From the IMG/VR virus record IMGVR_UViG_3300012920_000129, positions 1 through 33,554 of that record: 33,554 bases of DNA. One strand, given 5' to 3'. Source of the stretch: a virus. The notes beneath the pieces are model-generated. The model did not search any database. It saw nothing but the letters and a program-made list of their open reading frames with translations, and had not been told where the DNA came from. The translations under genes were made by a program, and so were the position numbers. This document shows, in pieces, positions 9,507 through 28,641 of the stretch. The first letter of the stretch is position 1, and each line of letters begins with the position of its first letter.

Positions 9507-10463
9507 TTAATAACCATAAGATCCCCCTCCCAACCCTGTATTGGTAGGTCCGGTATAAATATTAGAAGTTTGTGGAGGGGTGTTTACGGTAGGGGAGGAA
9601 GATAAAGTTTCTTCAGAAGTAGATATATTTCTTTTGTAAGATTTACACCAAAATGCTTTTTGAATTTTAGCATTCCATCTTTGACATAAACCTGCCTTAT
9701 AAAAAGTACATCCACTACATTGTTGCCCCTTATGTTTAGGCATATTTCCTAAATGATATGAAGGAGGTAAATTTGAAGGGACAATTTGACCAGAATCCCT
9801 ATACACTCTATTTAATCCTTGTTTTATAATTCCAGGAGTAAAATCAAAAAGTTGAAGATAATTATTTTTTAAATACTGAGATAATCCTAGTAAGTTTTCT
9901 CTTTGTTCTTTATAATCTACTGTATTTTTATTAGCTAAAGCAACTTTATCCTGCTCCCCAGAAATAACCCAAGGCAAAATAAAAGGAGTATATAAATAAA
10001 AATCTATACTTTTATCTTTAGTTTTTAATTGTTGATATTCTTTTTGACTTATTTCTATAAATAAAGATTCACTATTTTTTTTACAAAAATATCTATCAAA
10101 CTCACCTATTTCATAATCATCCGATGTAGGTTTTGGTGGTATGTATTGTGGTAAACGAGGAGCTTTTGGAGAATCGATACCTCTTAAATTAAGGTAGCTT
10201 AAAGTTTTCGTTGAAAATTGATATTCTTGATCTTGAGGGGTTTCTTCAGGAGTAGGTTCAGCTGCAGATATATCAGAAACTGAATCTTTTTGGAATTTTA
10301 CTAATTCTATAGTACTTTGGGTACTATCAGGGGTTTTACCTGCAAAATATTTTCCTGTTGATGTGGCCCAATAAAACCCAGTGTAAGGTTGACCTGTTTC
10401 AAGAATAACAAATTCATTGCTACTATATAAATTAGTTTCTATTTGAGAATTAGGAAAATACAT
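9507..10463 (-). CDS. Baseplate-region protein with HiPIP-like four-cysteine motif
   Basis: 318 residues. Residues about 20-55 hold a YTGFYWATSTGKYFAGKTP segment, a pattern I associate with phage baseplate proteins. Near the C-terminus are Cys249, Cys252, Cys260 and Cys273 (C-x2-C-x7-C-x12-C) in the context KGQQCSGCTFYKAGLC and FWCKSY. The last part fits the high-potential iron-sulfur protein signature (C-x6-9-[LIVM]-x3-G-[YW]-C-x2-[FYW]) except for Phe in place of Gly. A Gly/Tyr-rich tail follows. The start overlaps the hub gene stop (TAATG). A metal or Fe-S site in the tail tip is plausible, since the lambda tail-tip protein gpL carries a 4Fe-4S cluster. Zinc is equally possible. The role is unknown. 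Confidence 0.8.
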   Translation of the reverse strand: MYFPNSQIETNLYSSNEFVILETGQPYTGFYWATSTGKYFAGKTPDSTQSTIELVKFQKDSVSDISAAEPTPEETPQDQEYQFSTKTLSYLNLRGIDSPKAPRLPQYIPPKPTSDDYEIGEFDRYFCKKNSESLFIEISQKEYQQLKTKDKSIDFYLYTPFILPWVISGEQDKVALANKNTVDYKEQRENLLGLSQYLKNNYLQLFDFTPGIIKQGLNRVYRDSGQIVPSNLPPSYHLGNMPKHKGQQCSGCTFYKAGLCQRWNAKIQKAFWCKSYKRNISTSEETLSSSPTVNTPPQTSNIYTGPTNTGLGGGSYGY

Positions 10464-15548: not shown

Positions 15549-15751
15549 TATATTCTTCCTCCTTGTCCTTCAGGTGCGCTATCTTTGTATTGTTCTGGAG
15601 TGTTTCCGTCATTGCGATCTAAAACAGAGTCCGCAAGGAGATTTTCAACTCCGTTTTCACCTGCTACAGTGTTAACTTGAGGGGTTTGCCCATTTGTGCC
15701 TAATGTAGAATCACCACCTAGTAATTTATTTAAAAGTCCTGGATTTGCCAT
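15548..15751 (-). CDS. Small hypothetical protein at head of baseplate operon
   Basis: 67 residues, Asn/Gly/Asp-rich and acidic (MANPGLLNKLLGGDS to APEGQGGRI), probably largely disordered. ATG is at 15751, preceded by the conserved ATATTTAT element. The stop overlaps the next start (TAATG). Unrecognised. It is supported as a gene by its coupling to the next gene and by the upstream element. It could be a minor tail-tip component or assembly factor; nothing in the sequence decides. Confidence 0.65.
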   Translation of the reverse strand: MANPGLLNKLLGGDSTLGTNGQTPQVNTVAGENGVENLLADSVLDRNDGNTPEQYKDSAPEGQGGRI

Positions 15752-15785: not shown

Positions 15786-15794
15786 ATAAATATG
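15786..15794 (-). promoter_or_regulatory. Conserved CATATTTAT element upstream of the baseplate operon
   Basis: Plus strand reads ATAAATATG, 34 nt before the ATG at 15751. It is one of ten copies found before every gapped gene start. It would drive the unit from 15751 to the left edge. The function is inferred from position. Confidence 0.5.
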
Positions 15795-15799
15795 TAAAA

Positions 15800-18649
15800 T
15801 TATTGGGTTCTGTAAGATCCCATTCCTAACATAGTTCCTACTTTATTACCATCCATGTTAATTACTCCTCCTTTTTCTACAGCAGCTACTAAACGTTCTA
15901 ATAATTCTATAGTACGGCCATCATCTCCTCCTCCCATAGGATTAGTACCTCCTATTACTATATCATCAGGACGGAATTTTTGTATAGGTTGTCCTGGGCG
16001 AGAAATAAAATCAGCAGCTGTATCAGAAGCAACTCCCATACCCTCTGAATCTTCACCACCCCCAAAGGCATTAATTGCCATTTTTCCTAAGCCAGAAGTG
16101 TCTACATTATCAGATATTAAGTCGGCCACATATCTTCCGGCCATATCTCCTAAAACACCCCCTACGAAAGTGCCTACACCTGGTACTGGAATGAAACTTC
16201 CTAATATTGAGCCTAAAAGTCCACCCCCTAATCCCCCAATAGCATTTACTACTTGATTTCCTACCGCTCTGGGGTCAGCTCCTCCCCCAGCAGTTTGGGA
16301 TAACATGTAAGCTTCTATTGCGGGTCCTACAATCATTCCTAAACCAGGAACCCTTTTAAGGAATTTTGCTATATTAGGTCCTTTTAAAAATTTACCAATT
16401 GCTTGTTTAGGGTTTAATTTACCTGCTACTTCACCTACTTTACCAGCTACATTTGAAATAGCGCCTCCAGCTTTACTCACCATACTTTTAGCCCCTCCTA
16501 TAGCTTTACCTGCAAATCCTTTAGCTTTACTTGCTATGTTGCTGAAAAATCCACCACTTTTAGCAGCACCACCTGCTGCTGAGGAAGCACCTGCTGCTTT
16601 AGCTGCACCACCACCACCGGCTGCTGCTCCTGCTGCATTACCTAAATTACTAGCCATACCTCCTGCTGCGCCCGCAGCATTTTTTAGTGAACCTGTAAGG
16701 CCCTTAACATTTTTAGTTAAGTTTTTCATAACACCCCCACTGCCTTTCATATTTTTTAGGAACTTAGCAGAGTCTCTTACAAATGAAAGACCTTGCATAA
16801 GAGCTATAGCACCAGTAAGAAGTCCAATTGCAGTTGTTAATTCCGGGATAGCTGTAGCTACTTTATCCATAGCGTCTTTCATCCCCGTAAACGCCTCAGG
16901 GGACATAGCCTTCATCATCTGGTCCTGCATTTTTATTTGTCCTTCACGGAATTTTTCTTCTGCAGTTTGGGCTTTTCGCTTACTAACTAGTTCTTTTTTA
17001 CCTGAATCTGTTACTAACTTATCTAATTTACCTTGGGTTTGTGCTTTTAAGTCAGCTAATTGTTTTGCTTTTTCTTCTTCAGTTGCAGCACTTTCTAATA
17101 TGGCTTTTCTGGCTTCGGCTTCGCCAGACATAATTAAATCGTACTTTTTATTGACAGCATCGTCTAAGTTAGTAGCCCCTTCAACCTGAAGTTGGTTTAG
17201 GGCTTTTTGTTCAGCAAACATATCTGCCATTTCACCTCGACTCATACCCATTGCTTTAGCAATAGATTCTTGTTCGATACGATTCATTTTACTAAACTTA
17301 GCAGCAGTAATACCTTGTTTTTGGATCTCTTTAGCCATTCCTACCAAATCACCATCTAGGGCCATTTGTCTAGCTTTTTCTAAATTAAGATCTCTTCCAA
17401 GTAAAAGTTCTGCTTCTAACTCATTAGCAATGGATTGTTCAAAGTCTAATAAGTTACCTGCGATTGAGTCCATTTTATCAAGACTCAATCCCATTTTTTT
17501 AGCTTCAAATGCTGCTTTAGCTAAACTAAATCCTTGTGCTTCTAAAGAAAATTTAACAGCATTTGAGGTTTGATTAATATCTTTTAATATACCCTTATAA
17601 TCAAGTGCTGTATCATTTTGAGCATTTAATACTTTAACAGTACCAATTGCTTCATTAGTAAAATCTTCAAAACTTTGACCAGTAGCTAATGCAAATTTAT
17701 TTAAATTACCTGCTTCATCTGCTGAAAATCCTAATTGTTTGGTTAAAGTGGCAAATGTAGTTAAAGTACTAGAAGATAAATTAGCTGTGGTACCTAAAGC
17801 GGCGTTAGCATCATTTAAGGCAGCTGTAAGATCAGTTGCTACAAGGCCTATATTTTCTTGAGCAATATCTATAAACTTTTGTTGAAGTTTAGCTGCTTGG
17901 AGAGTACTTACATTTAGATTTTTTTCTAATGACACGGTAGCTTCATCAAATCTTTTAAACCCTTCAACAGCATTATCAGCTACCATAACCATAAATCCTT
18001 TAGCAAGATCTTTGGCAACCCCTTTAGAGGCCTTAGATAAGGCACTCATTTTATCGTTTGATTCTGCTAATTCATTATTGAAAGTTTCAGCAGCACCTGC
18101 CATTCCACTAAAGACTTTACCTACAATTGGAATAGATTGAGTAACTTCTGATAGTGTGGTGAAAGGGTTAGCCTTTTCCATTTTATCAGTAGTTTCTATT
18201 ATTTCCTCAAATTGTTGTTTGACTTCTTCAGCAATACTATTCTGTTCTTGCATTTGAACCAAGACCTCAGCTAAAGCATCTGCTTCTTGTAAAGCTGCTT
18301 CTTCTCCAATTGCATATAAAGCATTTATATCTTCTTGAAGGGTTACTATTTTGGCTGCCCTACCGGCGCTTTCAGCATCTAACTTAATAAGTTCTTTTTT
18401 AAACTCTTGGTTTTTCTTTAAACCCTTAAGTTGATCTTTAGTTAAGCTTTGGAGTTTACTAGCTAATTTATCAGCTTGTGATTGTGAAGTTTTAAAACTA
18501 CTAGCAGTATCACCTGTAGCTGTGGCAGCATTTTTAGCGGCATCCGCTAAGGCAGTACTTACACCACCTAAAGCTTGCTTTAGTCGTGTTGCCTCTCTAT
18601 TTATTTCCTTTAAAGTTTTAGGATTTAAATTTTTATCGAATTCCGCCAT
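15800..18649 (-). CDS. Tail tape measure protein
   Basis: 949 residues. The N-terminal half is helical and coiled-coil-rich with many Lys, Glu and Ala. A hydrophobic stretch lies near residues 600-625 (TTAIGLLTGAIALMQGLSF). An Ala/Gly/Ser low-complexity linker covers about 660-700, and a Gly-rich hydrophobic region near 800-845 (GLGGGLLGSILGSFIPVPG) could insert into membrane during DNA entry. It is the longest gene of the tail core and follows the chaperone pair, the standard position for a tape measure. T4 gp29 is about 590 residues; at about 0.15 nm per residue this one would set a tail near 140 nm. ATG at 18649 follows an ATATTTAT element by only 7 nt and has no Shine-Dalgarno. Confidence 0.93.
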   Translation of the reverse strand: MAEFDKNLNPKTLKEINREATRLKQALGGVSTALADAAKNAATATGDTASSFKTSQSQADKLASKLQSLTKDQLKGLKKNQEFKKELIKLDAESAGRAAKIVTLQEDINALYAIGEEAALQEADALAEVLVQMQEQNSIAEEVKQQFEEIIETTDKMEKANPFTTLSEVTQSIPIVGKVFSGMAGAAETFNNELAESNDKMSALSKASKGVAKDLAKGFMVMVADNAVEGFKRFDEATVSLEKNLNVSTLQAAKLQQKFIDIAQENIGLVATDLTAALNDANAALGTTANLSSSTLTTFATLTKQLGFSADEAGNLNKFALATGQSFEDFTNEAIGTVKVLNAQNDTALDYKGILKDINQTSNAVKFSLEAQGFSLAKAAFEAKKMGLSLDKMDSIAGNLLDFEQSIANELEAELLLGRDLNLEKARQMALDGDLVGMAKEIQKQGITAAKFSKMNRIEQESIAKAMGMSRGEMADMFAEQKALNQLQVEGATNLDDAVNKKYDLIMSGEAEARKAILESAATEEEKAKQLADLKAQTQGKLDKLVTDSGKKELVSKRKAQTAEEKFREGQIKMQDQMMKAMSPEAFTGMKDAMDKVATAIPELTTAIGLLTGAIALMQGLSFVRDSAKFLKNMKGSGGVMKNLTKNVKGLTGSLKNAAGAAGGMASNLGNAAGAAAGGGGAAKAAGASSAAGGAAKSGGFFSNIASKAKGFAGKAIGGAKSMVSKAGGAISNVAGKVGEVAGKLNPKQAIGKFLKGPNIAKFLKRVPGLGMIVGPAIEAYMLSQTAGGGADPRAVGNQVVNAIGGLGGGLLGSILGSFIPVPGVGTFVGGVLGDMAGRYVADLISDNVDTSGLGKMAINAFGGGEDSEGMGVASDTAADFISRPGQPIQKFRPDDIVIGGTNPMGGGDDGRTIELLERLVAAVEKGGVINMDGNKVGTMLGMGSYRTQ

Positions 18650-18656
18650 GATGGTA

Positions 18657-18665
18657 ATAAATATT
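18657..18665 (-). promoter_or_regulatory. Conserved AATATTTAT element before the tape measure
   Basis: Plus strand reads ATAAATATT, only 7 nt from the ATG at 18649 and just downstream of a hairpin terminator. If it is a -10 element, the transcript would be leaderless or nearly so. Confidence 0.5.
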
Positions 18666-18672
18666 CAAAAAG

Positions 18673-18698
18673 AAAAAGCATCATTTAGATGCTTTTTT
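18673..18698 (-). terminator. Hairpin terminator after the chaperone pair
   Basis: 10-bp stem AAAAAGCATC/GATGCTTTTT with a 5-nt loop, followed on the coding strand by more T residues. The stem overlaps the stop codon at 18681-18683. It is nearly symmetrical and so could also act on the other strand, although no opposing gene exists. Confidence 0.75.
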
Positions 18699-18977
18699 CA
18701 TTGTAGTTGAATATGTTGGTGGTTGAATTTGTTTAGAATTCTTTTGAGCTTCCTCCTTAGCAGCTCCCTGAAGCCAGCTTTGTGTGGCTTCATCTTGTTT
18801 AGCATTATTTTGTTTATCGTAATATTCTTTTATTTTATGGAATGTAAATTTTCTAAGCCAAGAAGGCATATTATATACATCGTTCCAAGAATACCCACCT
18901 TGTCCATGAAAAACTATTTCATGTATTTGGTTAAACAAATTTTGCCTAACTAGGGGTGCGGCATCAGGAGTCAGGCC
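18681..18977 (-). CDS. Tail assembly chaperone, frameshift-expressed second part
   Basis: Reading frame with good coding character that begins inside the end of the upstream gene and ends at 18681. From the T-run it reads GLTPDAAPLVRQN, then LFNQIHEIVFHGQGGYSWND, then MPSWLRKFTFHKIKEYYD, about 98 residues. It has no ATG before an internal Met well inside the domain; the only options are CTG or the TTG at 18938 without a ribosome site. This fits synthesis as an extension of the 247-residue protein by a net +1 (or -2) ribosomal shift, as in the lambda G-GT type of tail chaperones. It lies directly before the tape measure, where these chaperones always sit. T4 gp51 occupies the comparable position, but similarity is not established. 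Confidence 0.72.
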   Translation of the reverse strand, partial: GLTPDAAPLVRQNLFNQIHEIVFHGQGGYSWNDVYNMPSWLRKFTFHKIKEYYDKQNNAKQDEATQSWLQGAAKEEAQKNSKQIQPPTYSTTMKKASK

Positions 18978-19707
18978 AAAAAAAGCTCAAGCCGATTGGA
19001 AGTTGAACGGATTCATCTTCTCCGTCTTCATTAACTAATAATACATCCATATTCACATCAGGGGTGATTTGAGAATAGAATTTTCTAAATTCTCTGACAT
19101 CTTTAGCTAGAAAATAATTATTGATAAATTCTCTGATGTCTTTAGATTCTTCAGATCCATTTACAGATGTAATGGTATGAAATAATCTAGTAGTTACTTC
19201 GGCGGAAGTTGTTTTACTTATTTTTTTAAGTCCCTTTAATTCAGCTTCAATTTTCCTTTCATCGTGCCCCGTCAATAGTTTAAATGTTATTTCATTTCCA
19301 GTGTGGGGTAATTTAAAAGAAAATCTATTTTTACCTTCTTTAAATAAACTTTCGTCTATATCTTTATTTTCTAAAAGAGCTAAATCAACTTCTTGTTGTG
19401 TTCCCCCGTATGTAACTTCATACTTTCCACCATACGCCAAAATACGTGCAGCAATCATGATTGCGTTTTTATCACCCACTAGTAAATCATTATAATTAAA
19501 TTTAGTCATAATCAATGATTGAAGAAGTTTATCAATCACAGTTCCATTTTTAATATAATTTTGATTAGTAAGGATATCCTCTTCTTTAGCAGTCATATAT
19601 TTTATTTCAATTTTTCCTTCTGCTAAAGGGTGCCCTTCAGGGTATAATAAACCTTTTGATGGCAATTCTATAACCTCTGTGGGTAAATTAAATTGTGTGT
19701 CACTCAT
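18964..19707 (-). CDS. gp26-like T4 baseplate family protein / tail assembly chaperone
   Basis: 247 residues. The N-terminus ELPSKGLLYPEGHPL followed by IEIKYMTAKEEDILT is the hallmark of the T4_baseplate family (gp26 and relatives). The end is LPIGLSFFWPDS. In T4, gp26 takes part in assembling the central hub; in related phages the family occupies the chaperone slot before the tape measure. Start is ATG at 19707 with an A-rich leader and an ATATTTAT element 21 nt upstream. The gene is flanked by a terminator before and, after the overlapping partner, a second one, so the two form their own unit. The T7 run four codons before the stop probably extends a fraction of the product. Confidence 0.85.
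   Translation of the reverse strand: MSDTQFNLPTEVIELPSKGLLYPEGHPLAEGKIEIKYMTAKEEDILTNQNYIKNGTVIDKLLQSLIMTKFNYNDLLVGDKNAIMIAARILAYGGKYEVTYGGTQQEVDLALLENKDIDESLFKEGKNRFSFKLPHTGNEITFKLLTGHDERKIEAELKGLKKISKTTSAEVTTRLFHTITSVNGSEESKDIREFINNYFLAKDVREFRKFYSQITPDVNMDVLLVNEDGEDESVQLPIGLSFFWPDS
18975..18985 (-). promoter_or_regulatory. Candidate ribosomal frameshift site (T7 run)
   Basis: The coding strand reads C-TTT-TTT-TGG-CC near the end of the 247-residue gene, with zero-frame stop TGA at 18964-18966. Shifting +1 or -2 at the T run enters the open downstream frame. A -1 shift hits TGA after two codons, so the usual -1 mode does not work here. Confidence 0.6.
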
Positions 19708-19728
19708 TGTAAATAACTTTATTTTGAT

Positions 19729-19737
19729 ATAAATATA
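19729..19737 (-). promoter_or_regulatory. Conserved TATATTTAT element before the gp26-like gene
   Basis: Plus strand reads ATAAATATA, 21 nt before the ATG at 19707 and just downstream of a strong hairpin. A core variant of the element (TATATTTAT). Confidence 0.48.
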
Positions 19738-19744
19738 TAGAAAA

Positions 19745-19776
19745 AATAAAGGAGCGCGAAAATGCGCTCCTTTTTA
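19745..19776 (-). terminator. Hairpin terminator after the tail tube gene
   Basis: GC-rich 7-bp stem GGAGCGC/GCGCTCC with a 6-nt loop, flanked by A-rich and T-rich runs. The coding strand continues TTTATTTTTTC. It should end most transcription from the abundant tube gene before the low-level chaperone unit. Confidence 0.85.
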
Positions 19777-19796
19777 TACAATATTTTTGGCTGTTA

Positions 19797-20285
19797 TTAG
19801 TAGTTCAATACGCAGTAGTCCATATCTACTGTAAGATCAATTTGTTGTGGGTTTTCTGTATTATCGTAATTGTATTCCCCAAAGCTGGCTTCAGTGATGA
19901 TAGCACCCTTAATAACCCATTCACTTACTATATCACCTACAGGGCCCAATATGTTAAGGGTTAAGTCTTTTTTATAGAAATCAGAGTAGCCATCTCTACC
20001 TGTTACAGATTCGTGTCCTAATCTTACCCACTCCATTACTGCTTGAGCTCCAGAAGGAGTAATTGGATCATGAAGTGTTAAGGTAATAGGATTCCATACT
20101 GTTTTACCTTTAATTTTACGATAAACGTTAATATAATTTATTGTAATTGCTGGTTGGGAAAGACCAACTGCGCTTACACTTTTTATCGTGTAGCTGGGAA
20201 CCCCATCCAAATACAGTATGAACCGGTGTTGTTGTTTGGGTTCAAATGCTGTAAAGAAAATATCGTTTGAATCTAATACTGCCAT
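19797..20285 (-). CDS. Tail tube protein (gp19-like)
   Basis: 162 residues, almost the same length as T4 gp19 (163). It starts MAVLDSNDIFFTAFEPKQQHRF and ends VDMDYCVLNY. The KQQHRFILYLDG opening, the GLSQPAITINYINVYRKIKG stretch, the VWNPITLTLHDP segment and the FGEYNYDN near the end match the tail-tube family of contractile phages. Hexameric rings stack inside the sheath. It lies directly after the sheath gene as in T4. It has its own ATATTTAT element upstream and a strong terminator downstream, so it forms a single-gene unit suited to high expression. Confidence 0.93.
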   Translation of the reverse strand: MAVLDSNDIFFTAFEPKQQHRFILYLDGVPSYTIKSVSAVGLSQPAITINYINVYRKIKGKTVWNPITLTLHDPITPSGAQAVMEWVRLGHESVTGRDGYSDFYKKDLTLNILGPVGDIVSEWVIKGAIITEASFGEYNYDNTENPQQIDLTVDMDYCVLNY

Positions 20286-20302
20286 TGTTGTTGTGTTTGG
20301 TG

Positions 20303-20311
20303 ATAAATATT
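20303..20311 (-). promoter_or_regulatory. Conserved AATATTTAT element before the tube gene
   Basis: Plus strand reads ATAAATATT, 17 nt before the ATG at 20285. The leader on the coding strand is CACCAAACACAACAACA, with no Shine-Dalgarno. Confidence 0.5.
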
Positions 20312-20345
20312 GTAAAGTCTATTTTTTTATATTAATTTAAAGTTA

Positions 20346-22088
20346 TTAATATCCTCCTCCACCACCTCCTTCAGGGAATGTTGCCCCCGTTGGTTGAACG
20401 TTGAAGTTTAGGATTACAAATTCTGCTGTTTTAGTTGGTTGTAAGAAAACTTGTCCTACTAATTCATTTCTATCAATCACAGCTGGGGTGTTGATTGAAT
20501 CGTCCATAACAACTTTAAACGCGTATAAACCTTGTCTTTGTTGTACTGATTCGAGGTATGGGTTTACAATAGCTAAGAAATTATTTCTAGTAGCTTGTGT
20601 ATTTGCTTCGAATACTACATTTCCTGATTGAGAATCTAAGAATTGCTTTATGTTAATTAATAATCTTCTAACATTAACTCGATCTAGTGCTGAGGCTTTA
20701 GTTTGTAGTGTCTTTTGACCAAAGACTACTACTCCAGCTCCAGGGAAGGAAATGATTGGATTAACTTTATCTTCATAAAGCGTATCTCTCATAGCTTTAG
20801 TTAAAGTTCTTTGTGTTTTTACTACGTTTGGTAACGCACCTCTGTTTAAACCCGCCGGAGCGAACCAAGGCTCACCTACTTTATCATTATAAGCGTATAC
20901 TCCAGGAATTACCGTTGATGGTGGAACCCACTCTAATCTATTTGTTGATGGGTCATTGCATAATAACCAGGGGTAATAAGATGCTGCATATGAATTATTA
21001 AGGCTAACTGCTCGTCCAGTTACATCAGCAACTGATGAAGTGTAATCACCTAGATCAACTATAGCTATGCTATCAGCTCTATTCTTTGTGTTAGTTAACA
21101 ATATATCTAATGCAGATGTCATAGAGCCTGAATACCATAATCCAGGTGCTGCAATTGAAGTATACTTAAATTGTTCATCATTCAATAAGTAGAATGAAGC
21201 TGTAAAATCATCTGCAGATAAACCCTGAATATTAGCGTCTGAAATATCTTTTCCAAAGAGAGGGGTTGTTCCTGGGGTTCCTGTTGCTCCACCAAATCCT
21301 TTTGAGCCTGATCCTGCGTCGGTATTAACAGGAACACTAGCAGTAAAAGCCTGAACTCTTACATTCCCTAAACCGTCAGTATAATTAGGTGTTTCAGTAA
21401 TATCAGAAACAAAAACATATTTACTTCTGTTTGCGTAATCACCGTCTACGTTTACATAAACATCAGTTCCGGATCCGGCTACTGTAGTATTTTGGGTACC
21501 AATTACTTTACCTATAAATTGACTATCAAATGGGTCAAGATTTACATTATTGAATTGCTCAAGGATAATTTTTTCGTTGTCACTATCGTCTCCTCTTCTA
21601 ATAACAACTGTAAACGTTCCTGAAGATGTATTAGCATTAGTAATTTCATATCTAATGTTAGATCTAGAACCTGAGGTAAATATACCATTTACATCGGCAG
21701 CGGTTGTATCACTATTTTGATCATTACCTTGGGCTATAGTGTTTAGAGTAAATGAAGCACTATCTGCAGAGCCTGTTACACTAGCGGTTGCCGAAGTATG
21801 TGTATTTGCTACTGCTCTACTTACTAATAAAGTAGTACCACCATTATTAAAGTAGTTATAAGCTGCTTTTGAAGTAAAGTATGAAAAGGTACCACTACCG
21901 CTTATTAAAATATCGCCAAATACTGCAACATACTCAGGATAAGAAGATACTAAAGTAGGGATTTGAACAGGACCTTTAACTGTAGGTCCAACTATAGCGG
22001 CACCTGCTTCTACTATAGACTCAGGAAGAAACGATTGATCCGTTTCGTTGATATAAATGCCAGGAGAGACGATGTTTTGTGTTGCCAT
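20346..22088 (-). CDS. Contractile tail sheath protein (gp18-like)
   Basis: 580 residues, against 659 in T4 gp18. The N-terminus NIVSPGIYINETDQSFLPES followed by AAIVGPTVKGPVQIPTLVSS is the classic sheath opening. The middle is a variable, Ser/Thr/Gly-rich protrusion domain. The C-terminal domain has NPIISFPGAGVVVFGQKTL and VRRLLINIKQFLDSQ, the conserved sheath core that contacts the tube and neighbouring subunits. The tail ends GGGGGGY. ATG at 22088 with leader ATTACAAC and an ATATTTAT element 25 nt upstream. The tube gene follows after a short gap. Confidence 0.96.
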   Translation of the reverse strand: MATQNIVSPGIYINETDQSFLPESIVEAGAAIVGPTVKGPVQIPTLVSSYPEYVAVFGDILISGSGTFSYFTSKAAYNYFNNGGTTLLVSRAVANTHTSATASVTGSADSASFTLNTIAQGNDQNSDTTAADVNGIFTSGSRSNIRYEITNANTSSGTFTVVIRRGDDSDNEKIILEQFNNVNLDPFDSQFIGKVIGTQNTTVAGSGTDVYVNVDGDYANRSKYVFVSDITETPNYTDGLGNVRVQAFTASVPVNTDAGSGSKGFGGATGTPGTTPLFGKDISDANIQGLSADDFTASFYLLNDEQFKYTSIAAPGLWYSGSMTSALDILLTNTKNRADSIAIVDLGDYTSSVADVTGRAVSLNNSYAASYYPWLLCNDPSTNRLEWVPPSTVIPGVYAYNDKVGEPWFAPAGLNRGALPNVVKTQRTLTKAMRDTLYEDKVNPIISFPGAGVVVFGQKTLQTKASALDRVNVRRLLINIKQFLDSQSGNVVFEANTQATRNNFLAIVNPYLESVQQRQGLYAFKVVMDDSINTPAVIDRNELVGQVFLQPTKTAEFVILNFNVQPTGATFPEGGGGGGY

Positions 22089-22113
22089 GTTGTAATATTA
22101 TTTATATTTTGTT

Positions 22114-22122
22114 ATAAATATT
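22114..22122 (-). promoter_or_regulatory. Conserved AATATTTAT element before the sheath gene
   Basis: Plus strand reads ATAAATATT, 25 nt before the ATG at 22088. Confidence 0.5.
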
Positions 22123-22132
22123 CTAAAAGGGT

Positions 22133-22393
22133 TCAAGATTCGATTTCAGTTTTAGTAAAGACACCAGAATTTAAATCAATACTTCCATTGCCGTATTTTT
22201 GAGTTAAATCTTGACCAACTTTAGTTTCAGATTTTTTTAATTCTTCGATTTGTTCAGTTAATTTTTCTTTTTGCAACTCTAATAATTGAATATTATATTC
22301 TAATTGACCTAAATTAGCAATTATTTGATTTTGAGTGCTTTGGAGGTCATTTAAAACATCTAATTCTTCTTGCGATAACTTAATTTGTTCCAT
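22133..22393 (-). CDS. Small coiled-coil protein between tail-completion and sheath genes
   Basis: 86 residues. Residues about 5-58 form a heptad-patterned coiled coil (LSQEELDVLNDLQSTQNQII, then LLELQKEKLTEQIEELKKSE), followed by a short tail KYGNGSIDLNSGVFTKTEIES. ATG at 22393 has its own upstream ATATTTAT element. No family recognised with confidence. Position between gp15-like and sheath genes suggests a minor tail or assembly factor, and the clean coding frame plus element support it as real. Confidence 0.75.
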   Translation of the reverse strand: MEQIKLSQEELDVLNDLQSTQNQIIANLGQLEYNIQLLELQKEKLTEQIEELKKSETKVGQDLTQKYGNGSIDLNSGVFTKTEIES

Positions 22394-22405
22394 ATCTTTT
22401 TGTTT

Positions 22406-22414
22406 ATAAATATA
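22406..22414 (-). promoter_or_regulatory. Conserved TATATTTAT element before the coiled-coil gene
   Basis: Plus strand reads ATAAATATA, 12 nt before the ATG at 22393. A second copy in the same orientation (ATAAATATG) lies at 22426-22434, overlapping the end of the upstream gene. The two flank the 14-nt palindrome ATAAAAATTTTTAT. Confidence 0.48.
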
Positions 22415-22423
22415 TAAAAATTT

Positions 22424-23299
22424 TTATAAATATGAGTCTGATTTAGGGTCGGTGGTAACCGTTTCTGTAGTAAAAATAATTTTAGAAGGGCTATACAATT
22501 TTTTAGAAGCTGCAAGGTCTTTTTGCATCACATCAGGAATAAGATATCCTTTAAGAGTGATATTAAATGTAGCCTTTACTGTTCTTTGATCGTTAGAGGG
22601 AATTTCTGTTGACATATCAAAAGAATCTATTAAAGCATTAAACTTAAATCTTTCAGGATCACCCCAATATGAATTAGCAGCGTAGTTTACAGATTCAATA
22701 ATTTTATTTAATTGATCAGTGTAATAAGTATAAATTAAACAGCTATAAGCTATAGTAACAAAATCAGGAACTACTACGGCATAAAGTTCTTTAGTAGGAG
22801 AATGGGAAGTATTTAATAAGTTAAATTTATTGTAAGCGTTTTGTTTAGTATAAGTTTTTTGGAAAAAATCATAGTTGTTAGGATTGTTAGCATCTAACTT
22901 ACTGAGGAGTTTTTCATTAGTCATAGAATTTCTTGTTACTACAATTAAAGGAGCCATTATTTTTCCTTTATCATCTCTGTAGTAACCATCTTTTTGGATA
23001 TCTTTCCATCTTTCAGGATTTCCATACTTTATAGGTACAGCAATTCTTTGACCATTTTGAGTAACAAAAGGTTTTATAACATTATTAAAATAGTAAAATA
23101 TAGCTTCATCTATATCTTGGATCCCTAGATTAAAGGGTTTAGTATTATCTCCTCTAAAAGAAATTTTTTCACCCCTATTTATATCAGTGGAAATGGAACC
23201 ATTAGGATTTCCTTTCCCTAAAGGTTCATAGGGAGTAACCAAACTATTACTGATTTCTTTTTGAGATTTTGGGATGGGTATTCTTCCTTTAGTTGCCAT
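22424..23299 (-). CDS. Tail completion / sheath-terminator protein (gp15-like)
   Basis: 291 residues (T4 gp15 is about 272). The pattern IAVPIKYGNPERWKDIQKDG, then IMAPLIVVTRNSM, then LIYTYYTDQLNKIIESVNYA and SYWGDPERFKF, and a C-terminal TFNITLKGYLIPD follows the layout I know for T4 gp15-type tail terminators: an entry beta segment, a two-helix region and a closing beta segment. It would cap the end of tube and sheath and join the tail to the neck. It overlaps the gp14-like gene by TAATG and precedes the sheath. Assignment rests on pattern and order, not on an alignment. Confidence 0.7.
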   Translation of the reverse strand: MATKGRIPIPKSQKEISNSLVTPYEPLGKGNPNGSISTDINRGEKISFRGDNTKPFNLGIQDIDEAIFYYFNNVIKPFVTQNGQRIAVPIKYGNPERWKDIQKDGYYRDDKGKIMAPLIVVTRNSMTNEKLLSKLDANNPNNYDFFQKTYTKQNAYNKFNLLNTSHSPTKELYAVVVPDFVTIAYSCLIYTYYTDQLNKIIESVNYAANSYWGDPERFKFNALIDSFDMSTEIPSNDQRTVKATFNITLKGYLIPDVMQKDLAASKKLYSPSKIIFTTETVTTDPKSDSYL

Positions 23300-23808
23300 T
23301 ATAATCTTTCTCTAGTTATTCCTAACATATCTCCGGGTACATAATTGGTATTACATATAGTTGAAAGATTAGCCCCAAACTTTGCTAATCCTGGGTTTAA
23401 AGGATTAGGTTCATTGGGGTAATCTGGGTTTTTGCCCATAAAATATTGGTTAGAATTTATATTATTTACTTCGTAATAACCTTCATTATATAAAATAACA
23501 TCTCCTACTTCAGGTACTAAATTAGCATCTACTAAATCCGCCCTTAAAAATCTAAATTCAATTCCCCATTTGAAATCTACTCCTAAATCACTTTCTGGGT
23601 ATTCCTGGTCTTGCCTAACTATTAAAGCATTAAAAATAGTAGGATCAGCAAAATATCTTCCAGTAGAGGCTTCTCCATAAATATTAACTCGTGTATTACC
23701 TATTTGATACTTATAAAAAGAACATTGTTGGGTAATAATATCACCCATTAATTCTCTGTTTACTTTTTTAAACAGGCTTGTATCTCTTTGTCCTCCAAAT
23801 AATGCCAT
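23299..23808 (-). CDS. Neck protein (gp14-like)
   Basis: 169 residues, shorter than T4 gp14 (about 256). The opening DTSLFKKVNRELMGDIITQQ followed by FYKYQIGNTRVNIYGEASTG and GRYFADP is typical of the gp14 neck family in T4-like phages. The family forms part of the head-tail connector under the portal. The gene is coupled to both neighbours by TAATG overlaps, in the order gp13-gp14-gp15 as in T4. Confidence 0.8.
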   Translation of the reverse strand: MALFGGQRDTSLFKKVNRELMGDIITQQCSFYKYQIGNTRVNIYGEASTGRYFADPTIFNALIVRQDQEYPESDLGVDFKWGIEFRFLRADLVDANLVPEVGDVILYNEGYYEVNNINSNQYFMGKNPDYPNEPNPLNPGLAKFGANLSTICNTNYVPGDMLGITRERL

Positions 23809-24959
23809 TATCCAATGTAAATAGTATAGGGTACTGCTGCTAAATCTTTTTGTAAAAATTCTGATTCTTGGGCCTTTTTTTCTAATAATTTAGATCTTGA
23901 AGTTTCACTTAAGTAATTTCTTAACCTTTCTAGTAATGCCGTTTTTTCAGATGTAGCAGCTGATATTAGATCTCCATGATTTAATGTAGTTTCAGCTCCT
24001 GGGATTGGGATGGTAGTGTATTTACCCCTTATGTATCCTAACATTTCCTTAGCTAGAGCTAAAGTATATTCAAATATCCATTGTCTACCTATAGAATTAA
24101 TATTAGAATATGAAGGATTAGTATAAGGAACAGTTGAAATATCAGTTACAACTCCTGTCCCCAAACTACCAGAAACAATAGGATCATTTCTATCAGATTT
24201 TAAAATATATTGGAAATGTAATTTTTTATCTTTATTAGGAATAGGGAATATTCTAATTTTATTATTTACTAATTCAAAACTATAATTAGATTTTCTAATT
24301 TGATCATTAAAATCAATAGCTTGAATTTTTTGTAAATCATAGTTAATAGGCATTAGCAAAAAATTAATACCTGGGGTGTAATTTCCAAATCCAAAAGCAT
24401 CTAATAACCCTTGCACATCGGTACCAGTACCAGCATATGGATCAAAATATCTTACAATTGCTGGGTCACTTTCATAATATATTTTTTTAATTTCTATATT
24501 GTTTTTTTCTGTGCTTTGTGATACTGCAAATTCTTCTAAATCATAAATTTGTTGACCCGAGGTCATTTGGATACTGCCTGTTTTATATTCTGTAGTACCC
24601 CCAACTCCTGCTTCAGAACCATATGCTTCGGCAATTCTTATTTGAGTTCCTAAATTAGGACGGATTAGCTTATAATTAACTGAGGATCCAGTTGGTGATC
24701 CTTCAAAATCTAAATAATTTTCACTTGCTTGGTATGCAAATACTTCATTACCATATGTGGTTACTGCTTCTTCAAATGCTGTAAAAAAGTTGCTAGCTTG
24801 GAGTTCTACATCCGTTAAAGGATATCCTAAACGCCTAGCACAAAAGTCAGCTACTTTTTCTGCATCGATAGCAAATTCAATATCACTATCATAAAAACCA
24901 AAAGGTGTTTCTCCCGGGAAAAAAGAACTAGAGCCGGGCCAAATTGAAGGGTTTGCCAT
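23808..24959 (-). CDS. Head-tail neck protein (gp13-like)
   Basis: 383 residues (T4 gp13 is about 309). The N-terminus holds DIEFAIDAEKVADFCARRLG followed by PLTDVELQASNFFTAFEEAV, an adaptor-like helical pair. The middle has GQQIYDLEEFAV and IEIKKIYYESDPAIVRYFDP, segments I associate with gp13-type neck proteins of marine T4-like phages. First gene of a three-gene unit, with an ATATTTAT element and a terminator just upstream. Leader AAGAAAACAAC has no Shine-Dalgarno. Identity depends on order and pattern. Confidence 0.72.
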   Translation of the reverse strand: MANPSIWPGSSSFFPGETPFGFYDSDIEFAIDAEKVADFCARRLGYPLTDVELQASNFFTAFEEAVTTYGNEVFAYQASENYLDFEGSPTGSSVNYKLIRPNLGTQIRIAEAYGSEAGVGGTTEYKTGSIQMTSGQQIYDLEEFAVSQSTEKNNIEIKKIYYESDPAIVRYFDPYAGTGTDVQGLLDAFGFGNYTPGINFLLMPINYDLQKIQAIDFNDQIRKSNYSFELVNNKIRIFPIPNKDKKLHFQYILKSDRNDPIVSGSLGTGVVTDISTVPYTNPSYSNINSIGRQWIFEYTLALAKEMLGYIRGKYTTIPIPGAETTLNHGDLISAATSEKTALLERLRNYLSETSRSKLLEKKAQESEFLQKDLAAVPYTIYIG

Positions 24960-24970
24960 GTTGTTTTCTT

Positions 24971-24979
24971 ATAAATATT
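24971..24979 (-). promoter_or_regulatory. Conserved AATATTTAT element before the neck operon
   Basis: Plus strand reads ATAAATATT, 11 nt before the ATG at 24959 and directly downstream of the hairpin at 24981-25010. Confidence 0.52.
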
Positions 24980-24980
24980 A

Positions 24981-25010
24981 AAAAAGGCTCCTTAAATTGG
25001 AGCCCTTTTT
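24981..25010 (-). terminator. Hairpin terminator after the small collagen-like fibre gene
   Basis: Stem GGCTCC/GGAGCC extended by A-T pairs, 7-nt loop, with a T-run after it on the coding strand. Ends the fibre cluster before the neck operon. Confidence 0.82.
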
Positions 25011-25028
25011 AATTGTATTTAAAATCTA

Positions 25029-25559
25029 TTATACTACTACAGTAGTAAACTTTAAGTGATTACTACCGTTAAACCCATAAAAAGCATTAGTATCACTATT
25101 AAAATATATAGTACCTGAACCACTTATTGAAGCTGTGGTGGCATTTGTTCTTGCATTAAGTCTAAGCTCAGCTACAGAAGCAGTAAAGGGAACAATAGGA
25201 GTTGAACCATCTGCTCCTTGAGCACCGTCATTACCTTGAGTACCTGTTACACCTTGGGTACCTGTTGTACCTTGAGTACCTATTACACCTTGGGTACCTG
25301 TTGTACCTTGAGTACCTATTACACCTTGAACACCTTGAATACCTCCTGAGCCTAGGTAACTGCCCGTATAATAAAACTTACCGTCAGTTGTATCATATAA
25401 AACAGTTTTATGTGCATTAGTCTCTGGGTCTAGTGATAAAGAAGCAAATAATGAATTACTTCCTGAGAGTTCTCCTGTTATTGCTAATTTATCAATTACA
25501 TGGACTGACGAATTGCCTCCTGTAAAAGATTCAATATTATTTACTTTAAGTGTGCTCAT
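25029..25559 (-). CDS. Small collagen-like fibre protein
   Basis: 176 residues. The opening MSTLKVNNIESFTGGNS is, as I recall, common at the N-terminus of phage fibre proteins. A short cassette LFASLSLDPETNAHKTVLYD, then DGKFYYTGSY, leads into a collagen-like stretch of about 48 residues (GIQGVQGVIGTQGTTG and on to GADGS). The C-terminal cap is FNSDTNAFYGFNGSNHLKFT. The same cassette before collagen also occurs in the giant collagen gene at the left, so the two share parts. ATG at 25559 has an ATATTTAT element upstream, and a terminator follows the gene. Confidence 0.82.
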   Translation of the reverse strand: MSTLKVNNIESFTGGNSSVHVIDKLAITGELSGSNSLFASLSLDPETNAHKTVLYDTTDGKFYYTGSYLGSGGIQGVQGVIGTQGTTGTQGVIGTQGTTGTQGVTGTQGNDGAQGADGSTPIVPFTASVAELRLNARTNATTASISGSGTIYFNSDTNAFYGFNGSNHLKFTTVVV

Positions 25560-25574
25560 TATAGGGATTTATTA

Positions 25575-25583
25575 ATAAATATG
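25575..25583 (-). promoter_or_regulatory. Conserved CATATTTAT element before the small collagen-like fibre
   Basis: Plus strand reads ATAAATATG, 15 nt before the ATG at 25559. Confidence 0.48.
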
Positions 25584-25592
25584 TAATTTTAA

Positions 25593-26525
25593 TTAAAAAG
25601 TTATAGAACAAAACGATCCTGTTGAAATTGAAAGAGTACTACCATTACATATAGAAATAGTAGGACCTACAAACTGGTGATTTACGTTGGGTGGGATAGT
25701 TTGATCGTTACAAATTAGGTTAGGATTACCAAAACCTGCTAATACTAATAATAAATCATTTACATTAACTTGTCCATCTAAATTAATGTCACCCGCAGCA
25801 ACACCTCCTTCTCCACTACCTGTTGGGATGTCAGTTTGGCCAAAATTTGCTAATAAGTTTAATAAATTATTTACAGTGAAAGATCCAGTGGAGTTAAATG
25901 ATCCCGTGTTTTCAAAAGAACCTGAGTTCCCAAATGAACCAGAAAATGAACTCGAACCTTCACTATTAAATGATCCTGAATTATCAAATGAACCTGTGTT
26001 TGAAGTGGATCCAGTTATAGAAAAAGTAGTGCTTCTTAAAGATACAGGAACTGTAGGATCTCCAATTTGGAAAGAACTTGTTGTCATATCAAATAAAGCA
26101 ACATCTGAAACTAAGTGTCTGACCCTACCAGGGGCACTAGATTTCATCTGCACAAATGTTGTGTCATCAGATTCGTGAACAATTTGTTTACTTCCTGTTC
26201 TAAGACTTTTACCTTCTTTAAGATTTGTTACATCAGCTTTAGTAAATTTAGTAATCTTACCATCAGATGCTACGAAATTAATAGAGGCTGTAGATACATA
26301 AAGTTCTCTCCAAGCTGAGGTTGGTGAACCTAAGTCAAAAGAAGAAGTATTATCAGTTACAGAAGAAGAAGGGATTATATTCCCACCAATAGTTATACTT
26401 CCTGTAAGGGAGATATCGTTTTCATATATGTCATTAACTGATGTTTTAATCTCGTTGAATATAGCAGCATTAATTAAAGCTAAACTGCCACTATTTGTTC
26501 TATCGTCCCAGGTTATTTTTGACAT
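25593..26525 (-). CDS. Fibre protein with GSF repeats and dockerin-like domain
   Basis: 310 residues. Residues 1-170 are a fibre-type region (MSKITWDDRTNSG, DLGSPTSAWRELYVSTASIN). Residues about 171-216 are a short repeat of GSFxNxGSF units. Residues 214-265 look like a type I dockerin: a degenerate first half TVNNLLNLLANFG, then GDINLDGQVNVNDLLLVLAG FG with Asp246, Asn248, Asp250, Gln252, Asn254 and Asp257 as calcium ligands. Four Cys lie in the last 50 residues. Dockerins bind cohesins in cellulosomes and occur scattered in other bacterial proteins; in a virion fibre one could bind calcium and a partner protein or host surface. Start ATG at 26525 with an upstream ATATTTAT element. Confidence 0.82.
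   Translation of the reverse strand: MSKITWDDRTNSGSLALINAAIFNEIKTSVNDIYENDISLTGSITIGGNIIPSSSVTDNTSSFDLGSPTSAWRELYVSTASINFVASDGKITKFTKADVTNLKEGKSLRTGSKQIVHESDDTTFVQMKSSAPGRVRHLVSDVALFDMTTSSFQIGDPTVPVSLRSTTFSITGSTSNTGSFDNSGSFNSEGSSSFSGSFGNSGSFENTGSFNSTGSFTVNNLLNLLANFGQTDIPTGSGEGGVAAGDINLDGQVNVNDLLLVLAGFGNPNLICNDQTIPPNVNHQFVGPTISICNGSTLSISTGSFCSITF
25733..25886 (-). other. Dockerin-like duplicated calcium-binding motif
   Basis: Two copies of [V/T]VNxLLxxLAxFG at residues 214-229 and 253-266. Only the second has a full D-x-N-x-D-G-x-V-N-x-x-D loop; in the first the acidic ligands are replaced (NSTGSFTVNN). Confidence 0.75.
25887..26015 (-). repeat. GSF-N-G short peptide repeats
   Basis: About 43 residues built of six- to seven-residue units: NTGSFDNSGSF, NSEGSSSFSGSF, GNSGSFENTGSF. 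Regular Phe spacing suggests a small beta-solenoid or trimeric beta structure. Confidence 0.75.
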
Positions 26526-26536
26526 AATTTTTATTT

Positions 26537-26545
26537 ATAAATATT
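26537..26545 (-). promoter_or_regulatory. Conserved AATATTTAT element before the dockerin-like fibre gene
   Basis: Plus strand reads ATAAATATT, 11 nt before the ATG at 26525. Confidence 0.5.
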
Positions 26546-26571
26546 AGTGTTTTTATAAAATTAAAACTAAT

Positions 26572-28176
26572 TTATACTGCTGATGTAGATAAATTACCAC
26601 TATTATCTACAGATAATCTGTATTTAGTTCCATTAGGAGAAGTTAATATCAATCCTTTAGTACTATTATCTCCTGCAATTATATCTCCTGAGGCAGTAAC
26701 ATTTTGTGTAACCTCAAGATTGGTAGATATTTGTAGGTTATTTTCAAATGCGGAAAGTATATCAATATCGTTATATCCTATAACAATACTGGTATTATCG
26801 TCATAAATGTAACCAGCAGCATTAACGGCCCCTGTTCCAAAGTATATAGCTCCATCTACTGGTCCAGCTCCAGATTGGGGAATATTTAAAAATTTAGTAT
26901 TAATAGTAGCACTAGAACTTATATTACCTATAACTTCTAATTTTTCACCGGGTGTAGTAGTTCCTATACCAACATTACCATTAGAACCACTAATAGTTAA
27001 TGCAAGTCCATTAATTGCAACCGTAGATCCAGTGAAAAATCTAAAGTCATTTGTAAAAGATTGGAAGTTAAGTTCACCGCCTTCTCCTGATATTCTACCA
27101 TTATTTCCAAATTTTATAGCAGTTTCGTTACTACCATTTGCATTATCATTAAATACTAAATCACCACCTCCATTAGATTTAAATCTTACAATACCATTAT
27201 TTGTTGTATCTAAACTTCCTGTTATATCTAATGCAAATGATGGATTAGTTGTTCCTATACCAACCTTACTTCCATCACCTGTGATGCTTAATATACTTCC
27301 ACTAAATGTTAATCCTGGAATTGCTTCTACTGTAGGATTACCATCATTAACAGGAAGGTAAAAAGGCATTGAGATTGGTAGCTCTGTGTCTGTTGTATCT
27401 ACAAATCTAACTAATTGATCGGGGTTTGCATTTCCTTGTAAATTAATTAGATTAGGGGGAATGTTGCTTCCAGTAACTACACCTTCTATTTTTAATGTTG
27501 AACCATCAAAGGTTAACCCAGAAAGACCTTTAATTGTAGGGTTACCATCATTTACAAGAGGAAGGTCAAAAGGTAAACCTTCAGGAATACCTTGAGTATT
27601 ATCTACAAATATTGCTAACTGGTGCTCTAAGGGTTCACCTTGAGTATCAACAAATACAGGAACATCTGTTAAGTTATCAAAACTAAAAGCGCCTTGATAA
27701 GTTGAAGCACTTACTATTCCACTATTAATAGTATCAGTAGTAATAATGCTAGAGGTAAGGGAAGTAATTGTTAAAGCAGGAGCAGGTACAGCATCATCTA
27801 TTTTACTAGCTAATACATAAGAAGCAGAAATAGCAGATCTAGCAAGACTTGAAAAAGAAGATGATACTATAGTAATATCAAAAGTAGTTGAATCTCCCTT
27901 TTCAAAAGTTACTATGTTATCATTTACAGAAGCAGTTACTAATAAACTTCCAGTATCTGAACCTCCTCCACTAGGAAGGGTTAGTGAAAAAGTATCAGAA
28001 TTTCCTTTAGTAAAGGTAAGAATATCATCAGCAATAGAAGCTGTTAATAATAGGGATCCAGTATCTTGAGTTATACCTGGATCACCTTTAGGGCCAATAG
28101 CTCTAACTTCTACTACATTAGTAACGGCTTCCGATACTGTTACTTGGTTATTAGTTATGTCAACTGTAACGCTCAT
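26572..28176 (-). CDS. Phage tail fibre protein with VGIGTT repeats
   Basis: 534 residues. After a short GPKGDPG motif come two tandem copies of a 35-residue unit (DTGSLLLTASIADDILTFTK, DTGSLLVTASVNDNIVTFEK). Two copies of a longer unit follow, each with FVD, VNDGNPT and GLTF landmarks. Then come two VGIGTT-x-P motifs followed by LDITG/LEVIG, typical of trimeric fibre shafts in phages and Bacteroidota surface proteins. The C-terminus is GTKYRLSVDNSGNLSTSAV, a short beta cap. No S74 chaperone domain is visible. The start overlaps the upstream gene by ATGA, so the two are coupled. Likely a host-contact fibre; receptor unknown. Confidence 0.83.
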   Translation of the reverse strand: MSVTVDITNNQVTVSEAVTNVVEVRAIGPKGDPGITQDTGSLLLTASIADDILTFTKGNSDTFSLTLPSGGGSDTGSLLVTASVNDNIVTFEKGDSTTFDITIVSSSFSSLARSAISASYVLASKIDDAVPAPALTITSLTSSIITTDTINSGIVSASTYQGAFSFDNLTDVPVFVDTQGEPLEHQLAIFVDNTQGIPEGLPFDLPLVNDGNPTIKGLSGLTFDGSTLKIEGVVTGSNIPPNLINLQGNANPDQLVRFVDTTDTELPISMPFYLPVNDGNPTVEAIPGLTFSGSILSITGDGSKVGIGTTNPSFALDITGSLDTTNNGIVRFKSNGGGDLVFNDNANGSNETAIKFGNNGRISGEGGELNFQSFTNDFRFFTGSTVAINGLALTISGSNGNVGIGTTTPGEKLEVIGNISSSATINTKFLNIPQSGAGPVDGAIYFGTGAVNAAGYIYDDNTSIVIGYNDIDILSAFENNLQISTNLEVTQNVTASGDIIAGDNSTKGLILTSPNGTKYRLSVDNSGNLSTSAV

Positions 28177-28577
28177 ACAAAAGATCCTAAAGTAACATTT
28201 TTACTTAAATTTACTGCTCCTTCTATAACTCTTGTTACTACTGCACAAGTTCCACTACCTGAAGCAATTTCTAAATCATAATATGCTCTAGTAAAACTTA
28301 AATCTGAAGTGGTGTTGGCCGAAATAAATACTCCTATAGTACCTGAAGTAGGTGGATTTAACCCACCGGAGCCATTTAAATTTAATCCTGTGCCACAAGT
28401 TCCTAAACTTGAACTTAAAGTAAGAAGCAAATCACCTGCTCCTGGGGTAGAGCGGAATTGCATTCTAGCTTGATAATCAGTTAAATCAACTGGTTCAGAA
28501 TTAGAGTCTTTATATGCGATTTCAAAATCGACTGTAGCTCCTTGTTCAATAGTAAAGTTGTATTTTCCCGCAGCCAT
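28173..28577 (-). CDS. Small Ig-like virion protein (BppU-N-like)
   Basis: 134 residues with an all-beta pattern: YNFTIEQGATVDFEIAYKDS, DLTDYQARMQFRSTPG, then GTIGVFISANTT and AYYDLEIASGSG ending VIEGAVNLSKNV. This resembles the small beta-sandwich at the N-terminus of baseplate/receptor-binding proteins such as BppU, found near fibre genes in many phages. The two internal Cys could form a disulfide. It overlaps the next fibre gene by 4 nt, so it may cap or anchor that fibre. It has an ATATTTAT element and terminator just upstream. Confidence 0.75.
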   Translation of the reverse strand: MAAGKYNFTIEQGATVDFEIAYKDSNSEPVDLTDYQARMQFRSTPGAGDLLLTLSSSLGTCGTGLNLNGSGGLNPPTSGTIGVFISANTTSDLSFTRAYYDLEIASGSGTCAVVTRVIEGAVNLSKNVTLGSFV

Positions 28578-28588
28578 GTTGTTTTTGT

Positions 28589-28597
28589 ATAAATATT
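28589..28597 (-). promoter_or_regulatory. Conserved AATATTTAT element before the Ig-like/fibre pair
   Basis: Plus strand reads ATAAATATT, 11 nt before the ATG at 28577 and directly after a strong hairpin. Leader ACAAAAACAAC has no Shine-Dalgarno. Confidence 0.52.
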
Positions 28598-28600
28598 AGA

Positions 28601-28626
28601 AAAGGCCCCTCAATTCGGGGCCCTTT
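28601..28626 (-). terminator. Hairpin terminator after the giant YadA-like gene
   Basis: GC-rich stem GGCCCC/GGGGCC with a 7-nt loop and flanking AAA/TTT pairs. The coding strand continues into TTTTCT. Confidence 0.83.
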
Positions 28627-28641
28627 CTTATAAATTAAATA

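Follow-up and report, generated by a model that had tools for sequence, protein, structure and literature searches.

The 33,554-nucleotide (nt) stretch analysed here (the window; IMG/VR record IMGVR_UViG_3300012920_000129, positions 1 to 33,554) is a fragment from a T4-like phage that has not been cultured and is a relative of Flavobacterium phage vB_FspM_immuto (Immutovirus; hereafter immuto), and the gaps ahead of its virion genes carry a short AT-rich word, TATTTATA, counted in the window as the 9-mer HATATTTAT. It is probable (about 80%) that this word is the late promoter of an immuto-like clade, read by a clade-specific sigma factor resembling T4 gp55, of the type represented by immuto gp118. 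Sequence comparison argues strongly for a promoter, and we infer from it that gp118 is the reader of TATTTATA, that transcription starts at the word and that its timing is late. An earlier reading, made from the letters of the window alone (the sequence-only reading), had proposed a phage-specific promoter or an RNA-level signal. The first of these is now well supported by conservation across the clade, separation from early promoters, adjacency to terminators and a purine downstream of the word, and the second has become less likely.

The word in the window

The window, a fragment without detectable end repeats in the 33.5-kb record, encodes T4-type virion proteins: sheath, tube, hub, a gp25-like baseplate protein and a head-tail adaptor, besides long proteins of collagen-like or repeat type. 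Among named phages immuto is the closest. Its genes from the sheath through the tube and hub to the tape measure, and those that come next, stand in the same order, with a carboxypeptidase-like gene also matching in order. Since the sheath proteins are only 48% identical, membership of the window phage in the genus Immutovirus is not claimed.

HATATTTAT occurs 15 times in the window, as against a mean of 3.97 (standard deviation 2.26, maximum 12) in 100 whole-window shuffles. Of the 15 copies, 14 lie on the minus (coding) strand, and ten fall in gaps before virion genes. These ten are spread over the 11 gaps that measure 12 nt or more (539 nt in total), where 2000 dinucleotide shuffles of the gaps gave a mean of 0.27 and a maximum of 3, and where the reverse-complement word has no copy at all. 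In the gaps the end of the 9-mer lies 7–34 nt from the ATG (16–43 nt counted from its first base), and the in-gene copies ahead of the starts at 9503 and 7713 lie 51 and 56 nt away.

Most of what the sequence-only reading had noted could be reproduced. Its ten gap copies, at 15786, 18657, 19729, 20303, 22114, 22406, 24971, 25575, 26537 and 28589, and its four in-gene copies, at 7770, 9555, 22426 and 23677, are all present on the minus strand, and four hairpins do lie directly upstream of copies, as it had said (hairpin scan; the T-rich tail of 24986-25004 was read directly). The relation that it drew to T4 is exact, TATTTATA being the reverse complement of the T4 late promoter TATAAATA. It was mistaken in giving all in-gene copies the same orientation, having overlooked one at 14192 on the plus strand, inside gene 13716-15548. 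Its statement that the word precedes every gapped gene holds for ten gaps; the eleventh, 18939-18963, before the TTG-start open reading frame (ORF) 18681-18938, has no copy. That ORF overlaps the terminator hairpin 18697-18673 and is itself doubtful. The features are as follows.

28589..28597, minus strand: late-promoter-like word AATATTTAT, 11 nt to the ATG of 28173-28577; terminator 28628-28598 adjoins upstream
26537..26545, minus strand: AATATTTAT, 11 nt to the ATG of 25593-26525
25575..25583, minus strand: CATATTTAT, 15 nt to the ATG of 25029-25559 (collagen-like tail protein)
24971..24979, minus strand: AATATTTAT, 11 nt to the ATG of 23808-24959 (head-tail adaptor-like); hairpin 24986-25004 precedes
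22426..22434, minus strand: CATATTTAT, second copy, 32 nt to the ATG at 22393, within the 3' end of the upstream gene 22424-23299
22406..22414, minus strand: TATATTTAT, 12 nt to the ATG of 22133-22393
22114..22122, minus strand: AATATTTAT, 25 nt to the ATG of the tail sheath gene 20346-22088
20346..22088, minus strand: tail sheath gene (T4 gp18-like, phrog_23), closest named relative immuto, 48% identity
20303..20311, minus strand: AATATTTAT, 17 nt to the ATG of the tail tube gene 19797-20285
19729..19737, minus strand: TATATTTAT, 21 nt to the ATG of the baseplate hub gene 18964-19707; terminator 19773-19748 precedes
18657..18665, minus strand: AATATTTAT, 7 nt to the ATG of 15800-18649 (tape-measure-like); terminator 18697-18673 precedes
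15786..15794, minus strand: CATATTTAT, 34 nt to the ATG of 15548-15751
9555..9563, minus strand: AATATTTAT, possible internal promoter within gene 9507-10463, 51 nt to the ATG of 7713-9503
7770..7778, minus strand: AATATTTAT, possible internal promoter within gene 7713-9503, 56 nt to the ATG at 7713 of a long collagen-like ORF
28598..28628, minus strand: intrinsic terminator, 12-pair stem, adjoining the word at 28589
24986..25004, minus strand: hairpin with a T-rich tail on the minus strand (the scan lists the plus strand only; the minus-strand tail was read directly)
19748..19773, minus strand: intrinsic terminator, 10-pair stem (hairpin scan)
18673..18697, minus strand: intrinsic terminator, 10-pair stem (hairpin scan)

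As a separate observation, the sheath leader (22114-22122 and downstream) contains AATATTTATAACAAAATATAAATAA, which places a T4-like TATAAATA just downstream of the word; the same is seen at loci L009-L011.

Conservation in relatives

Conservation was followed at the best 80 of at least 598 confirmed sheath relatives and at the best 80 of at least 600 gp118 loci; A1 took 32 and A2 31 of the 80 loci. ORFs were called from ATG only and at 50 amino acids or more, and start sites may therefore be wrong. At the sheath loci, co-directional copies upstream of genes number 326 for TATTTATA and 16 for TATAAATA; 75 loci have more of the former, none has more of the latter and five have equal numbers.

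The word tracks gaps. Within the window and the 80 relatives, it lies no more than 60 nt from the start in 254 of 286 gaps of 25–60 nt (25 for the reverse-complement control), in 90 of 167 gaps of 60–150 nt (control 6), in 33 of 93 gaps of 10–25 nt (control 7) and in 8 of 15 gaps longer than 150 nt (control 0), and in only 9 of 293 when the gap is shorter than 10 nt (control 5). These counts are not independent, because the sheath loci are related, and 342 of the 369 sites have distinct contexts. Among the 75 loci with sufficient upstream DNA, the sheath gene itself is preceded by the word in 65 (control 5). In the window and its nearest relatives (L009-L012) the string before this gene, AATATTTATAACAAA, is identical, whereas its flanks differ.

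In immuto, whose virion genes are arranged as in the window and which shares its late word, TATTTATA is the 8-mer with the strongest intergenic enrichment: 24 of its 30 forward copies are intergenic in a genome of which about 5% is intergenic, and 300 intergenic shuffles gave a mean of 2.66 and a maximum of 8. De novo motif search by expectation-maximization (EM) in the gaps between structural genes recovered naTATTTATA in about 19 of 21. The immuto word differs from that of the window in more often having a C ahead (acTATTTATA).

Presence of the word seems to depend on belonging to the immuto-like lineage, not on the phylum of the host. Tenacibaculum phage PTm1 (L215) is T4-like and has a Bacteroidota host, and in its first 50 kb TATTTATA precedes 1 of 41 gap starts; host phylum alone therefore does not set the word. 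No gp118 homolog was found in PTm1. On these grounds the host -7 box alone was rejected as the source of the word sequence. PTm1 has an excess of ATACATA in positions 1-50000 (11 intergenic copies and 12 elsewhere), possibly another late box.

Promoter-like signatures and alternative readings

The 342 distinct contexts were kept for the analysis of signatures. The stretch downstream of the word is A-rich, and, counting from the first base of ATATTTATA, the position 12 bases away holds A in 0.70, G in 0.25, T in 0.05 and C in 0.00 of the 173 distinct sites lying at least 20 nt from the ATG. It is thus a purine in 95% of these sites, with G near 0.03 at neighbouring positions, and this purine-only position four bases past the word looks like an initiating purine. 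No conserved element was found 20–40 nt upstream (Kullback-Leibler value at most 0.18 at -20 to -40). Under a strict rule, the word stands directly behind a terminator at 41 of the 342 sites. As controls, the same pipeline was applied to the late region of T4, where it recovered the known TATAAATA at 12 of 18 gap starts, and to a pelagiphage and a cyanophage, where ATAAATA came up at 8 of 15 and 8 of 16.

Could the host polymerase read the word without any phage factor? The promoter consensus of Flavobacterium johnsoniae is given as TTTG at -33 (PMC6847099) and TAHHTTTG at -7, and TATATTTA, the core of the late word, agrees with the -7 box save for the final G. Moreover, immuto has promoters of this kind close to the late word in sequence: a 60–77 kb block of small hypothetical genes (records L089-L092) carries early promoters of the form TTG-N19-TATATTTAGGTATCAATAATTAAAAC, nearly identical and about 20 in number, and nearly all of the approximately 20 copies of TATATTTAG lie there, with a TTG 17–23 nt upstream in 20 of 21. 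These promoters fit the Bacteroidota consensus, and the early genes are accordingly predicted to use host sigA-type promoters, TTG near -33 with TATATTTAG. They are separated by region from the late word. At the 33 gap starts of 60–80 kb, TTG-N16-22-TAnnTTT is found at 22 and the late word at 4, and at the 25 gap starts of 110–160 kb the numbers are 2 and 15. The late sites differ from sigA promoters in other respects as well. TTG is no commoner at the -33 distance than in the background: 34 of 342 sites have it, and control windows gave 24 and 47. The first T of the -7 box is relaxed, the base before ATATTTAT being A in 0.47 and T in 0.20, and its final G is not kept, the base after TTT always being A, which is part of the search word. 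It is therefore improbable that the sigA holoenzyme alone serves the late genes by taking TATATTTA as its -7 box.

Slightly less probable again is a signal acting in the RNA, as an element of the 5' untranslated region for translation, RNA stability or processing. The word always stands shortly before a start codon, the hosts of the clade lack Shine-Dalgarno sites (PMC6847099), and an AU-rich element might be recognised in the transcript. However, its spacing to the ATG is loose (median 19 nt across the clade, mostly 0–35), starts behind gaps of less than 10 nt manage without it, it can adjoin a terminator, and the purine-only position resembles an initiation site. Finally, a T4-type TATAAATA promoter that faces the opposite way and makes antisense or divergent transcripts is very improbable as an account of the string, in spite of the exact match to the T4 late promoter on that strand. 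In this region the window has no genes in that direction, the conserved flank (A-rich bases followed by a purine) is on the gene side and co-directional TATAAATA is rare; the word acts forward relative to the genes and is therefore not a T4 promoter facing backwards.

Related early promoters were seen in phage Mel-JY01 (PP395634; L183, L189 and L190), whose early regions carry TTGCATA-N-cGTAnnTTTGta, of Bacteroidota type. There are 43 copies of TTG-N18-21-TAnnTTTG where 21 are expected (20 shuffles, maximum 30). The recorded host of Mel-JY01 is the cyanobacterium Microcystis elabens, and the phage carries the immuto-type sigma and the late word; its true host may be a member of the Bacteroidota present in the culture.

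A candidate late sigma factor

What would read a late promoter of this kind? The sequence-only reading had pointed to a gp55-like sigma gene elsewhere in the genome as something to look for, and a candidate is found in immuto gp118 and its homologs in relatives. Annotated as hypothetical, gp118 has a weak match to PHROG 234, the T4 late sigma family (E 0.0083; 0.5 by hmmscan), and a profile of nine gp55 proteins places it first among 228 immuto ORFs (E 0.0053, the next at 0.5). By hhalign (P 0.0036, probability 9%) the two families are collinear over their first ~106 residues. Of 32 gp118 homologs, 19 match Pfam Sigma70_r2 with E no higher than 1 (0.01 at best), and two match the family that comes next. 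In 3 of 7 genomes Sigma70_r2 has one match each, the gp118 homolog, below cut-off. Searches against PDB sequences found no sigma for gp118, and phrog_12791 was found in 0 of 11 records.

An AlphaFold model of the homolog L095 (mean predicted local distance difference test score, pLDDT, 77; predicted template modelling score 0.46) has T4 gp55 in the RNA polymerase–promoter complex (7d7c_F) as its top structural match (Z 9.7 over 128 residues, root-mean-square deviation (rmsd) 5.3), although Z below about 13 can arise by chance for helical models. The other rows are almost all sigma factors, such as region 2 of sigmaE on the -10 strand (4lup; Z 8.8, rmsd 2.5). Taken together, sequence and model make gp118 likely to be a region-2 sigma, a very diverged relative of gp55. 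The family has in addition a helical, highly conserved C-terminal domain (residues 134-232 of L095, 99 residues, pLDDT 88.8), for which the PDB gave no clear relative (best Z 5.7) and Foldseek none.

Within the phages collection, gp118 relatives occur only in immuto (four records), Mel-JY01 and LR756508; the word is present in the first two. One contig, G006, holds both a gp118-type sigma and a sheath region with the word. A 155-kb contig with the word, G008, was considered as a counter-example lacking gp118 and rejected, its first gene being a homolog of immuto gp114, with the gp118 neighbourhood beyond the contig end; a match of the gp55 profile in it (78 amino acids, E 0.003) was judged spurious, the protein not being sigma-like.

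Several results weigh against a late promoter read by a gp118-type sigma. As regards the word, it is lacking before the sheath gene in 10 of 75 relatives, and its bias is weaker around the gp118 loci (127 TATTTATA vs 55 TATAAATA). At the gap starts of Mel-JY01 it is found in only 5 of 27, with ATATTTAT in 7 of 27. The sheath region of LR756508 has it in 0 of 31 gap starts despite a gp118 homolog (40%), and de novo search there returned an unrelated string; the coupling of sigma and word is therefore not strict, or the box has changed in that phage. Some copies are just 1–7 nt from the annotated ATG, too near for an ordinary leader. The T4 late region also has TATTTATA before 6 of its 18 gap starts, so that a lone copy in an AT-rich gap does not settle the matter, and EM on the window alone, at 29.8 with n = 11, hardly exceeds a null that reaches 28.8. 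As regards gp118, all of its Pfam and PHROG matches are below cut-off or at E 0.0083–0.5, 7 of 14 control genomes also match phrog_234 when E up to 10 is allowed, and the hhalign probability is low. Foldseek with the full L095 model gave nothing at E 0.001 or better (best sigma-like E 0.66).

Comparison with T4 late transcription

Late transcription in T4 is a textbook system, and TATAAATA has been described as near-constant in T4-like phages. The T4 promoter is served by the gp55 sigma together with gp33 and the gp45 clamp (PMC2988020), and the cyanophage form is NATAAATA (PMC2984593). The likeness is considerable: an 8-bp AT-rich -10 box without a -35 element, standing before virion genes and often after terminators, and a candidate phage sigma with a predicted region-2 fold. 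Just as the late word resembles the host -7 box, the T4 box (PMC2988020) appears to resemble a sequence of its own host, TATAAT. The differences are that the box is here the reverse complement, TATAAATA on the coding strand being replaced at the ratio given above, that the gp118 family has an extra C-terminal helical domain of ~95 residues, and that searches of immuto and relatives for gp45 clamp families found none.

The clamp searches covered several families: PF02916 was found in 0 of 11 records, phrog_223 in 0 of 7, and PF09116 and PF00712 in 0 of 5. The genomes without detected T4 clamp families include immuto, G006, G014, G016 and Mel-JY01. Mel-JY01 has an annotated clamp loader, and thus a diverged clamp may have been missed. 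The profile searches suggest a possible late system without gp45 in the immuto-like clade.

On the reading favoured here, the word would be a -10-like box (consensus aTATTTATA) that lacks any -35/-33 element. A-rich DNA comes next, and transcription would begin at a purine about 4 nt past the box. The word would drive each new transcription unit of virion genes, and such units would often finish at an intrinsic terminator. The host (Bacteroidota) RNA polymerase, equipped with the phage late sigma (gp118 and homologs), would read TATTTATA and not the TATAAATA of T4, and the early genes of immuto would use host sigA-type promoters. A further-reaching proposal is tentative, and possible rather than probable as a whole: that a whole clade of T4-like phages of Bacteroidota re-coded the transcription of its late genes. 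In this proposal TATTTATA, the mirror of the T4 box and near the host -7 box, would be read without gp45 by a diverged gp55-like sigma that has gained a C-terminal domain.

Among the open-access papers searched for the word and for late promoters or sigma factors in phages of Bacteroidota, none was found that describes this box. The clade that appears to use it is large and mostly environmental (at least 598 sheath and at least 600 gp118 relatives); it would combine the reverse-complement box with a very diverged sigma. Comparison of gp55 with gp118 could make the evolution of promoter specificity in a minimal sigma testable, and the word may serve as a marker of late transcription units in uncultured phages of Bacteroidota, where functions might also be assigned to hypothetical proteins such as gp118.

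Other genes of the window

Two long minus-strand frames flank the region of the word. Positions 1-7713 are a single open frame of ~2,570 codons, mostly collagen-like repeats, which continues past the window edge. At the other end, 28642-33483 encodes a 1613-residue repeat protein, 16 stretches of which match PHROG 25468 (function unknown).

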